Part shown: in pieces, positions 55,233-58,660 of the stretch
How the letters are laid out: each line of letters starts with the position of its first letter
Position numbering within the stretch: position 1 is the first letter of the stretch
DNA from: Halalkalibacter oceani
Lineage (GTDB): Bacteria; Bacillota; Bacilli; Bacillales; Bacillaceae_D
DNA length: 64,000 bases
Assembly (NCBI RefSeq): GCF_023715605.1
Contig: NZ_JAMBOL010000011.1
Location: 1-64,000, forward strand
Direction of reading: 5' to 3'
Made by a program: the position numbers and the translations under genes
The notes under the pieces: model-generated
Database searches by the model: none
The model's input: the letters and a program-made list of their open reading frames with translations, nothing else
What the model was told of the DNA's origin: nothing

Positions 55233-55676
55233 TTGGAAAGTTTATTGTACATAAGTGCGCTGATTGTAGCCGTAGCGTTCGCTATTTTAGTTTTTTCGCT
55301 TGTCAAAACATTGAAATCAGCAAATAAGACACTTGATCATGTAGCCAGCACAATGGCAGGGTTGGAGAAGCAGATCAACGGAATTACGAAGGAAACAGAA
55401 GAACTTCTCCAGCGCACAAATCAGTTGGCTGATGATATAAAAGGAAAAACCGAATCCTTCAATACTGTTTTCGCTTCATTTAAGGAGCTTGGAGACTCCG
55501 TCGGGCAAGTGAATAAGTCACTGCGGCACGTGTCAGATACCGTATCCGAACAAACGGTAAAGCAATCCGAAAATATTGCCCAGGCGGTACAATGGGGCAA
55601 TGTCGTGATTGATTTATATACGAAATTCAAGCAAAGAAAACAGCACTTAAATCTTAGTAAGGAGGAGACCAAATGA
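55233..55676 (+). CDS. ytxG: General stress protein YtxG (DUF948)
   Basis: A 147-residue protein with one N-terminal membrane segment (LLYISALIVAVAFAILVFSL) and a long coiled-coil region after it. DUF948 proteins resemble the helical part of methyl-accepting proteins. Function unknown; stress-induced in B. subtilis. TTG start at 55233 after GGGAGGTGACGTTAG; longer frames upstream would cover the SigB promoter. Its stop overlaps the start of ytxH by four bases (ATGA). Confidence 0.88.
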   Translation: MESLLYISALIVAVAFAILVFSLVKTLKSANKTLDHVASTMAGLEKQINGITKETEELLQRTNQLADDIKGKTESFNTVFASFKELGDSVGQVNKSLRHVSDTVSEQTVKQSENIAQAVQWGNVVIDLYTKFKQRKQHLNLSKEETK

Positions 55677-56110
55677 GTGAAATGAATACGAAAGACTTTC
55701 TTATTGGATCTTTAATCGGAGGAATTGTAGGGGCCTCAGCCGCGTTGCTGTTAGCACCGAAATCAGGCAAAGAGCTTCGTAATGATTTAAATGAACAAGC
55801 GCAATTGGCAAAAGAGAAGACGACCCAGCTGACATCAACCGCTTATGATAAAGGAAATGAATGGGCCTCTTATGCAAAGGAAAAATCAGCTTCCATCGCT
55901 AAAGTCGTCAGTGATCAGTCTGCCCAGGTAGTTGATAAAGTAAAGGAAGTCACCTCCAATGTGAAAGCCGATGCTGAAGAAACAAAAGAGCTCGCAGATG
56001 AGTTGGCTGGCGAGGTAGGCGAGGCACAGGAGGAAGTGAAGGAAACAGTCAAACGGGAAGTGGATGAGATTCAGGCAAAAATTGAAGAAGAAGCGAGTCA
56101 AACGAAGTAA
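55673..56110 (+). CDS. ytxH: General stress protein YtxH
   Basis: A 145-residue protein with a Gly-rich membrane segment near the N-terminus (FLIGSLIGGIVGASAALLLA) followed by PKSGKELR, the YtxH landmark. A long, highly charged amphipathic helix follows. It recalls LEA-like or apolipoprotein-like stress proteins. It is coupled to ytxG. The third gene of the B. subtilis operon, ytxJ, is missing here; a terminator follows instead. Confidence 0.92.
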   Translation: MSEMNTKDFLIGSLIGGIVGASAALLLAPKSGKELRNDLNEQAQLAKEKTTQLTSTAYDKGNEWASYAKEKSASIAKVVSDQSAQVVDKVKEVTSNVKADAEETKELADELAGEVGEAQEEVKETVKREVDEIQAKIEEEASQTK

Positions 56111-56208: not shown

Positions 56209-56246
56209 AAAAAGCCCGTTGTGAGTCGCTTTCTCACAACGGGCTT
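56209..56246. terminator. Terminator between ytxH and the FtsA-like gene
   Basis: AAAGCCCGTTGTGAG pairs perfectly with CTCACAACGGGCTT around TCGCTTT. The genes on both sides end here. Confidence 0.85.
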
Positions 56247-56270: not shown

Positions 56271-58442
56271 TTAAGAGGAGCGGAATAAAGAAAGCTTTTC
56301 GCCAACGAGAAGCTCAATCCGGTCCCCGTTTATTAATGGACTGTTGAAGCTTGTTTCTTCGCCATTTTTTCGCAGGACTACTTTCTTTCCTGAAAGATGA
56401 GCCAGGTCGATTTCGACGGCGGTGAAGATATCCTGAAGAATAAACGGCTCTTCCTTTTTAAACGACAACTGAAGCTGATCGTTTGCCCGCAGTTCATCGG
56501 ACGGGGAGAGCACGCTGTCGCCCCGTTTTACTTCCACAACCGTTTTATATATTTCCACAGGGTCATTATTGTAGAAGACGGTGATGCTTTTTTCGGGCTC
56601 CACTTCGTTTTGCCTGAGAAATGTCGCTACGGTTAGCTGATTTTCCGAAGCTACCTCCCAGCTTATCTCGTCTCCGCTTTTCACTTCATGGCCTGGCAGC
56701 ACCGGTCTGCCATTGAGCAGAAGCTTCGTCTGTTTTGGCTGAAACGACCAGCGTTCACCATTCACGATAATCGTCACCGGTTCGAAGTTGTGCGGCGATA
56801 TATTTTCAAGCTGAAGAATCTCTTTTACCGTTCGTTTTGAGAGCAACGTAATTTGGTCCCGTTCTTTGACGAAGGAATCTTTTGAGGCAACGACTCCATT
56901 TTGTAAAATAGTCGCTGTGATTTCCCGTTTCTCGCCATTGATCACGAGCGATAACGTCGGAATGTCCTCAAGCAGGTCGGCGATTGTCGCCTTCGCCTGC
57001 TCGCCATTTTGCCCCCGTTCTACTACAATCTGATCGCCAGCTTCCAGCGGGGAATCGAGTGTTGTCGGCTGCCCGTTTTTCAGCAGAAGGGGCGGCCCTC
57101 CATATTCGCCCGGAATGGAAATAAGCTGCTCCTGAACCGTAACCATAAGCGCAAGGCCCGGTTTGCCATACAATCGGGCGATATCGATTCCGGCGGCGAG
57201 TAAGCCGTCTCCTATCGTTAATTTTTTGACGTCGAACAGGCGCAAAGTCCGCCCGTTTACCGTAACACTACTATATTGGATCGGATTTTCTTTCGCCGCA
57301 ATCGCAATACCGATCGGAGTGACGAGCTCCGGACCGAATGGATCACCGGGCTTTGATTGTAAAGCTTTAATCGCATCGGCTCCGCGAATCGCGACCCTGT
57401 TCTCTGGCAGACCTAAATATTCAGCGACATAATAAGGTAAAAGGGGGGTCAGGCTTCCTCCTCCTACGAGCATAACCGCTTTCGGAGTTCTTCCATTTAA
57501 GCGGATAATTTCTTCACTGATCGAACGGGCGAGATGCTGAATGTTCCCTTCGATCGGAGCGATGAACTCTTTTTTCGCATATGACATTTCTGTGCCGAGA
57601 ATATCGGTGATCTCGACGGTTTCCTGCGTGGAAAGCTGCCGCTTGACCTGCTCGGCATCAGGAAAGTCGAGCAAATAATGATCGCTGATGGCTTCGGTAA
57701 TTTCATCTCCTGCGACCGGCACCATTCCGTAGGCAATCACCGTATTTTCATCCGTTAAGGCTATGTCTGATGTCCCGGCACCAATATCGACGAGTGCGAC
57801 ATTTAAGCGGCGCATCGAAGGCGGAATGAGGACATTTATTGCGGCGATCGGCTCTAATGTTAACGCTTCAAGCTCCAGTTCAGCTCTTGTCAGGGCGGCG
57901 AGCAGTGATTCAACGACGACCTTTGGCAGGAAAGTCGCGATCACTTCCACCGCTGCCAGCTTGCCTGTCTGATCAAGCAGGCTGCCGATCGGTTCGTTGT
58001 CGAGAGAATAAGCGAGAACCGAATAGCCGACACAGTAATAATCAATCGTCGATGCGTCATCGATTTCATTTGCCAGCTGAAATTGGGCCTGCTGGACTGC
58101 GCTTAGCTCTAAATGCAGCACATCATCACGATCAAACATCGGCTTTGCCGAAATATCAATTTCAAAGCGGGCCCGCTTTGTTTTCAGAGAGCGCCCGGCA
58201 GCGGCGACGCATACTTTCCGCAGTGGACCGTGCTGTTCTTCAAGCTTGTGCTTTACTGTCTCGATCACTTTAGCAACAGCAGGCACATCATGAATTTGGC
58301 CATCGAGCATCGCCCTTTCCTCATGCTCCTTTATGACAGAGTCAATTAAGGAAAAGGAGCCGTTTTCAGGACGTAACAAAAGGCCGACAACAGAGCGAGT
58401 ACCGATATCAAGGGCGAATAAAGGGGAAGATTGATCAGTAGT
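56271..58442 (-). CDS. Large FtsA-like actin-fold protein with repeated C-terminal modules
   Basis: A 723-residue protein. The first 390 residues are an FtsA/PilM-type actin fold: phosphate-1 ALDIGTRSVVGLL near residue 12, phosphate-2 ALVDIGAGTSDIAL near 217 and the adenosine motif MLVGGGS near 324. The remaining 330 residues form about five repeats of 60-75 residues with the pattern NG...GD.I followed by T(I/V)xxxL, resembling small beta-grasp-like units. There is no FtsA C-terminal amphipathic helix and no ftsZ nearby. It may be a division or envelope-associated ATPase; function is unproven. The start at 58442 follows GCAGGTGTTTGTC. Confidence 0.78.
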   Translation of the reverse strand, partial: TTDQSSPLFALDIGTRSVVGLLLRPENGSFSLIDSVIKEHEERAMLDGQIHDVPAVAKVIETVKHKLEEQHGPLRKVCVAAAGRSLKTKRARFEIDISAKPMFDRDDVLHLELSAVQQAQFQLANEIDDASTIDYYCVGYSVLAYSLDNEPIGSLLDQTGKLAAVEVIATFLPKVVVESLLAALTRAELELEALTLEPIAAINVLIPPSMRRLNVALVDIGAGTSDIALTDENTVIAYGMVPVAGDEITEAISDHYLLDFPDAEQVKRQLSTQETVEITDILGTEMSYAKKEFIAPIEGNIQHLARSISEEIIRLNGRTPKAVMLVGGGSLTPLLPYYVAEYLGLPENRVAIRGADAIKALQSKPGDPFGPELVTPIGIAIAAKENPIQYSSVTVNGRTLRLFDVKKLTIGDGLLAAGIDIARLYGKPGLALMVTVQEQLISIPGEYGGPPLLLKNGQPTTLDSPLEAGDQIVVERGQNGEQAKATIADLLEDIPTLSLVINGEKREITATILQNGVVASKDSFVKERDQITLLSKRTVKEILQLENISPHNFEPVTIIVNGERWSFQPKQTKLLLNGRPVLPGHEVKSGDEISWEVASENQLTVATFLRQNEVEPEKSITVFYNNDPVEIYKTVVEVKRGDSVLSPSDELRANDQLQLSFKKEEPFILQDIFTAVEIDLAHLSGKKVVLRKNGEETSFNSPLINGDRIELLVGEKLSLFRSS

Positions 58443-58660
58443 CATGACAAACACCTGCGTTCTTTTAAAGTTTTTGACATACTTATGTTTCTTTTATTCT
58501 ACTAAAGTTTGCCGGAGAACGTAAGAGAAAGATATATTATGTCGCTTTAACGCTTAAAAGCGTCTAATTATTAAAGAAAAAGTTCGTGACTTTCTGATAA
58601 GCATCCCTTATAATAAACCTAATCACGAAGAAGCCAAAGGATAAAAAGGAGTGGAGAGTT

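Follow-up and report, generated by a model that had tools for sequence, protein, structure and literature searches.

An FtsA/PilM-Superfamily ATPase of Bacillota and Thermotogota with a Five-Unit, Apparently Interleaved Beta-Grasp Arm

Introduction

Three described families of actin-type ATPase lie close to the protein reported here: FtsA (PF14450/TIGR01174), PilM (PF11104/TIGR01175) and EutJ of ethanolamine utilization. FtsA has an actin fold with subdomain 1C; its residue R300 in E. coli is linked to binding of the FtsZ tail (a literature search on this residue found no paper). The membrane anchor of FtsA is a C-terminal amphipathic helix (PMC12288466).

The small fold that recurs in the C-terminal arm of our protein is shared with ThiS, MoaD, TGS and SAMP domains and with the multi-ubiquitin (BubA-type) proteins, in which units occur singly or end to end. 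A beta-grasp unit is ordered hairpin, helix, then two strands. Sulfur carriers of this fold need a C-terminal Gly-Gly tail, and TGS- and S4-type folds are common among ribosome-binding proteins. One further protein enters the account through its gene: MutS2 of B. subtilis splits stalled ribosomes (PMC10897456).

We describe a 724-aa protein encoded in the window, a 64,000-nucleotide stretch of a Halalkalibacter oceani contig (NZ_JAMBOL010000011.1). The original prediction, made from the sequence of the window, was of an FtsA-like ATPase fused to about five repeated modules. No description of an FtsA-like protein with a beta-grasp arm, and no role for one, was found in the literature searched (preprints and most subscription journals lie outside it), leaving intact the prediction's premise that this architecture had not already been described and assigned a role.

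Gene and Surroundings

The coding sequence occupies 56274..58445 of the minus strand, with its stop codon at 56271-56273. Its ATG start region is common to homologs; an alternative GTG start would extend the frame to 56271-58454, and the ATG (58445) was judged better. The upper limit of 58442 in the original prediction falls three bases inside this. Directly 3′ of the stop codon is a strong terminator-like hairpin of 14 pairs followed by a T-rich tail (56212..56246, minus strand), so the transcript is predicted to end at this gene.

The gene lies, as had been noted, between stress genes and aroA: YtxG/YtxH-like genes are found on one side, and on the other the DAHP synthase/chorismate mutase gene (aroA) among aroA/ccpA/motPS-type genes, all these names being assigned by reading protein sequences. 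The YtxH-like neighbor (55673-56110, plus strand) is convergent and ends near the 3′ end of the 724-aa gene. A link between an actin-like protein and YtxH is represented in PDB entry 9a51, an integrative crosslinking model of Mbl with YtxH. The closest named match of the 724-aa protein is from H. oceani, at 96% identity over the whole protein. The canonical FtsA of the same genome is encoded away from this contig, on C47, where a SepF gene lies at a distance of about 6.5 kb.

ATPase Core and Relation to FtsA

Residues 7-387 (57285..58427, minus strand) form an actin/FtsA-type ATPase core that includes subdomain 1C, as delimited by Pfam, VIA alignment and invariant phosphate motifs. In the full-length structure prediction (AlphaFold; 54 homologs, mean pLDDT 88) this core aligns with Vibrio FtsA 7q6f at Z 38.8 over 359 residues, bearing out the claim of a complete actin-type nucleotide fold. 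It also aligns with the FtsAs of E. coli, S. aureus and Thermotoga (Z 34-39 across FtsAs, 13-21% identity), and more weakly with PilM 2ych (Z 30.8) and MreB (Z about 23). EutJ (3h1q) shares the actin core (25% identity over 248 aligned residues, Z 24) but is shorter (272 aa), and the 724-aa protein scores far below the EutJ cut-offs. The sole PHROGs match, a partition protein, is to the core. The phosphate motifs D13-G15-T16, D220-G222-A223-G224-T225-D227 and G328-G329 are invariant in 54 alignment rows and in 21 Thermotogota proteins; the ATP site, as read from these motifs, is predicted to be intact.

Pfam places the protein above cut-off for both FtsA (44.1 bits, cut-off 31.8) and PilM_2 (40.4, cut-off 27). 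The stricter NCBIfam ftsA model (TIGR01174) is not reached, at 73.2 bits against a cut-off of 175.85, and other long members score about 75-118 bits. In a tree with 16 FtsAs (Bacillota and E. coli) the long proteins form one clade apart, with 100/100 support and a long stem, although long branches meet and the root is unsure. The residue equivalent to E. coli R300 is an arginine in all 24 canonical FtsAs compared, and none of the 54 long proteins has it. In a core-only alignment nothing lines up with the FtsA membrane helix; the model ends instead in the beta strands of the last arm unit and a short low-confidence tail. The protein thus shares with FtsA the whole 7-387 core, with its actin fold, subdomain 1C and ATP motifs, and differs in its 330-residue beta-grasp arm. 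Of the original identification as FtsA fused to modules, the FtsA fold stands and the FtsA identity does not: strict FtsA was rejected on the separate clade, the missing R300 equivalent and membrane helix, and the normal FtsA and SepF elsewhere in the genome.

The two genes can coexist. Of 299 Bacillota genomes, 105 carry canonical FtsA together with the long protein, 62 the long protein only, 58 canonical FtsA only and 74 neither; co-occurrence is slightly above expectation (odds ratio 2.2, relatedness ignored). Replacement of FtsA as a rule was accordingly rejected, on the 105 genomes that carry both. Canonical FtsA over the TIGR01174 cut-off is missing from 136 of the 299. One genome with canonical FtsA and the long protein has in addition an arm-less FtsA/PilM-like protein of 368 residues on a very long branch (L146, G190:C1:2138204-2139022); that genome gave no SepF match.

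Beta-Grasp Arm

Modeled alone (339 residues, 49 homologs), the C-terminal arm has a mean pLDDT of 93.4 and a pTM of 0.68. Its elements run H1 a1 H2 B1 a2 H3 B2 a3 H4 B3 a4 H5 B4 a5 B5 (H, beta-hairpin; a, helix; B, a block of strand, NG...GD and strand). In profile-profile comparison the five B blocks have mutual scores of 29-49 (maximum 8.2 for 40 random N-terminal windows) and the five hairpin blocks 14-21 (null maximum 5.3). A strict NG..GD-type motif occurs four times in the protein and at most twice in any of 5000 shuffles. The "about five" repeats first proposed are exactly five of each element in both models, and structure prediction and repeat detection agree on repeated units; no single non-repeated domain was seen.

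The best Foldseek matches of the arm are linear tetra-ubiquitin and bacterial multi-ubiquitin proteins. Single units match TGS, ThiS, SAMP1, MoaD-type proteins and TtuB by VIA-align at middling Z of 6-8, nearly all of one fold. The matches from a viral fold library were all multi-domain and poor, several of them being ubiquitin-like. Pfam searches over 49 members matched ThiS in 38, Ub-Mut7C in 25 and TGS in 22, with ThiS and TGS over cut-off in several relatives; S4 matches the arm weakly in nine, and RqcP/YabO at E 0.02. The strong fold matches taken with the ThiS, TGS and Ub-Mut7C matches identify the repeats as beta-grasp units, as had been suspected.

These units appear in the model to be interleaved: each consists of its own hairpin, helix and B block, with pieces of the preceding and following units lying between. 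All coordinates that follow are on the minus strand. Unit 1 (57018..57275) comprises H1 at residues 391-404, a helix at 411-425 and B1 at 453-476, with H2 of unit 2 inside it. Unit 2 (56841..57149), assigned from the secondary structure of both models and block similarity, has H2 at 433-444, a helix at 486-493 and B2 at 512-535, and is interleaved with B1 and H3. Unit 3 (56655..56957), likewise assigned from secondary structure and block similarity, has H3 at 497-510, a helix at 540-554 and B3 at 574-597, interleaved with B2 and H4. In unit 4 (56460..56777) H4 at 557-568, a helix at 606-612 and B4 at 637-662 are interleaved with B3 and H5. The last, unit 5 (56301..56594), has H5 at 618-635, a helix at 670-684 and B5 at 688-715, and its end is well conserved (NG..A.F...GD.I.L.W).

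The interleaving is read from the predicted model, alignment ranges and one loss pattern. Of the 64 residues of TGS domain 3hvz_A, 62 align (rmsd 2.0) to arm-model residues 5-94 with about 28 residues passed over, H2 among them; TtuB 5gha_H aligns 57 of 64 (rmsd 1.7) to residues 173-280, a span in which B3 and H5 have to be passed over; and 1wgk aligns to residues 231-339, that is, unit 5. These alignments fit interleaved units 1, 4 and 5. The loss pattern comes from short clostridial homologs that lack H4 (17 of the 54 aligned; 37 of 94 in a larger set, two of these 37, L105 and L106, being full forms with misplaced gaps). In most of them B3, H5, the last helix and B5 are still present and a variable linker stands in place of B4 and helix 4, the gaps at B4 and helix 4 being placed partly by eye. 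H4, helix 4 and B4 are not neighbors in sequence, so their joint absence looks like the loss of one structural unit, which supports interleaving. In the short clostridial forms unit 3 closes the interlocked block.

A simpler arrangement can be drawn, since a hairpin, an NG..GD block and a helix do follow one another in sequence and would make a permuted but contiguous module, the arm then being a plain string of beta-grasp-like domains built from adjoining pieces. We think this improbable: units 1 and 4 align as hairpin, helix and block across skipped elements, the short forms retain B3 and H5 without H4, helix 4 and B4, and in their last unit hairpin, helix and block follow in the ordinary order of one domain. 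In some short forms the pieces of this terminal unit adjoin one another, and almost all of the ThiS profile aligns to it in sequence order (weak E-values of 0.002-0.035); in long forms the best ThiS-type stretches mostly cover the C-terminal part of the profile, i.e., the B-block part of units. In five short clostridial proteins (L063, L073, L085, L087, L107) the terminal beta-grasp unit sits on a variable, acidic or Pro/Ala-rich linker, and from their sequences it may behave like a free domain on a tether. The original prediction had missed the apparent interleaving, as opposed to an end-to-end arrangement, of the units.

Phylogenetic Distribution

The architecture is widespread in Bacillota and Thermotogota. 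Of the 299 Bacillota genomes, 167 carry a full relative, and full-length members come from Bacillaceae, Anoxybacillaceae, Clostridia and Epulopiscium-type bacteria. The long protein is present at 38-50% identity in 51 of 61 genomes sampled from the phylum of one Thermotogota locus (L047), and 21 Thermotogota proteins examined have the full element set (B4 is gapped in one). This makes it probable that five units are the ancestral state, from which the short clostridial form derives. One family (f35; genomes G239, G312, G069 and G214, loci L072, L095 and L104) has open frames of 825-877 residues, one with a Lys/Arg-rich N-terminus (MENINETVPTAKQPAKRRGRPKKRI), and its genomes have no canonical FtsA over cut-off.

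Within the genus to which the window belongs, three genomes carry the gene in split or truncated form (loci L022, L023 and L015 in G016, G015 and G021), with several in-frame stops and frame changes in G015, and it was not found in two others (G013, G017). This suggests that gene loss is ongoing in Halalkalibacter; being absent or broken in several genomes, the gene must be dispensable there. A sporulation marker was also considered and rejected: SpoIVA is found in 37 of 40 carriers vs. 30 of 40 non-carriers, a weak link, and the Thermotogota carriers are not known to form spores.

Gene Neighborhoods

In all 21 Thermotogota loci examined, mutS2 lies directly upstream on the same strand, mostly with a spacing of -4 to 50 bases (244 in one), an overlap by 4 occurring in some; the remaining neighbors vary between groups. 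TIGR01069, over cut-off in 22 genomes, confirms the mutS2 identification; 10 of the 22 are without the long protein, and the genes are adjacent in the positive genomes tested. No neighbor is conserved across Bacillota orders in the neighborhoods examined. Contexts there are lineage-specific: heme genes, ctsR-mcsB-clpC-radA-disA or ytxGH/aroA, with a helicase, an M20 peptidase, a pseudouridine synthase and a MurJ-like gene in further cases (names from sequence reading, tested in part). The idea of a membrane- or wall-located partner thus gains nothing: no membrane anchor is evident, and the only conserved linkage found is to mutS2, in Thermotogota.

Discussion

We interpret the 724-aa protein as a soluble, ATP-binding member of the FtsA/PilM superfamily that forms an ancient subfamily of its own, with an arm of five interleaved beta-grasp units, and that would act as an ATP-dependent adaptor; taken whole, we give this explanation an even chance of being right. 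Prediction and sequence support the fold with its ATP site, the count of five units and their probable interleaving, as well as the clade apart from FtsA and the loss of the FtsA arginine and helix. The actin-type core would open and close with its nucleotide and pass this motion on to a stiff, interlocked arm. The most conserved parts of the arm, unit 1, adjacent in sequence to the core, and the terminal unit 5, may dock a protein or ribonucleoprotein partner, the conserved first and last units thereby contacting core and partner. The protein would not itself be an FtsZ-to-membrane tether, nor a PilM of type IV pili.

FtsA is the nearest fold of the 724-aa protein, which might be a second, specialized FtsA, a divisome or cell-shape regulator joining FtsA, SepF or MreB filaments while its arm recruits envelope proteins. 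The 62 Bacillota genomes with the long protein and without canonical FtsA would fit, as would reports on C. difficile in which substitutes for a missing FtsA are still to be identified (PMC10693644, PMC12548448). We nevertheless regard this as rather unlikely, given the loss of the FtsZ-linked arginine and membrane helix, a coexistence with FtsA slightly more frequent than expected instead of a replacement of it, and the lack of a recognized ftsZ or dcw neighbor in the neighborhoods examined. Comparable doubt attaches to a role alongside MutS2 in the removal of ribosomes that have stalled or collided (or in the DNA role of MutS2), the ATPase arm recruiting or resetting MutS2 or the ribosome. 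It would account for mutS2 being the immediate upstream gene in all 21 Thermotogota loci though other neighbors differ, and for the faint S4- and RqcP/YabO-like signals in the arm, and it agrees with the ribosome-splitting activity of B. subtilis MutS2. On the other side, no mutS2 gene lies beside the long-protein gene in the screened Bacillota neighborhoods, a shared operon can be historical, and MutS2 does not need the long protein, since mutS2 occurs without it in the 10 Thermotogota genomes counted above and in B. subtilis. The adjacency, together with what MutS2 does to stalled ribosomes, makes ribosome rescue the most specific functional lead; judged from sequence, rescue linked to MutS2 is perhaps the best lead to the process, with division as its rival.

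Two further identities fare far worse. A PilM-type pilus assembly protein with an extra arm would be consistent with the PilM_2 match and the alignment to 2ych, and PilM shares the core fold and the lack of a membrane helix; the long beta-grasp arm belongs to the 724-aa protein alone. This identity is very improbable: NCBIfam pilM (TIGR01175) gives 63.7 bits against a cut-off of 133, no pilus gene was recognized beside the gene, and PilN (PF05137), matched in 10 of 20 carriers, has no match in the genome of the window or in nine of the 19 others. For the genome of the window, the absence of a PilN match largely refutes it. Hardly credible is the proposal that the units are sulfur carriers or ubiquitin-like tags, conjugated or thiolated, although ThiS, SAMP and multi-ubiquitin proteins are matched by fold and by Pfam. 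An exposed C-terminal Gly-Gly is absent: the protein ends ...GDRIELLVGEKLSLFRSS (...LFRSS), many others stop soon after the last strand without such a tail, and the tails of 72 relatives have no common GG end. Nor was an E1/ThiF-like or deubiquitinase neighbor recognized in the neighborhoods examined. Unlike the carriers and BubA-type proteins, whose units are single or end to end, the five units here appear interleaved, are fused to an ATPase and show no conjugation tail.

The observation behind this work has come out stronger than first stated; of its interpretation, beta-grasp units are upheld, and strict FtsA and a membrane or wall partner are not. In the model the architecture of the arm appears unusual, and interlocked beta-grasp units, if true, would mean that a very common fold had been put together in an unusual way to make a stiff arm. 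The 724-aa protein scores below both the NCBIfam FtsA and PilM cut-offs, and its family is present in more than half of the sampled Bacillota genomes and in most sampled genomes of a second phylum. A possible role in division can be tested in the 62 sampled genomes that have the long protein without canonical FtsA. The mutS2 operon of Thermotogota is a direct, testable lead to function, and at its boldest, a view we consider doubtful, the finding would mean that an ancient Bacillota/Thermotogota ATPase family with an interlocked beta-grasp chain acts with MutS2 as an unrecognized component of ribosome rescue.
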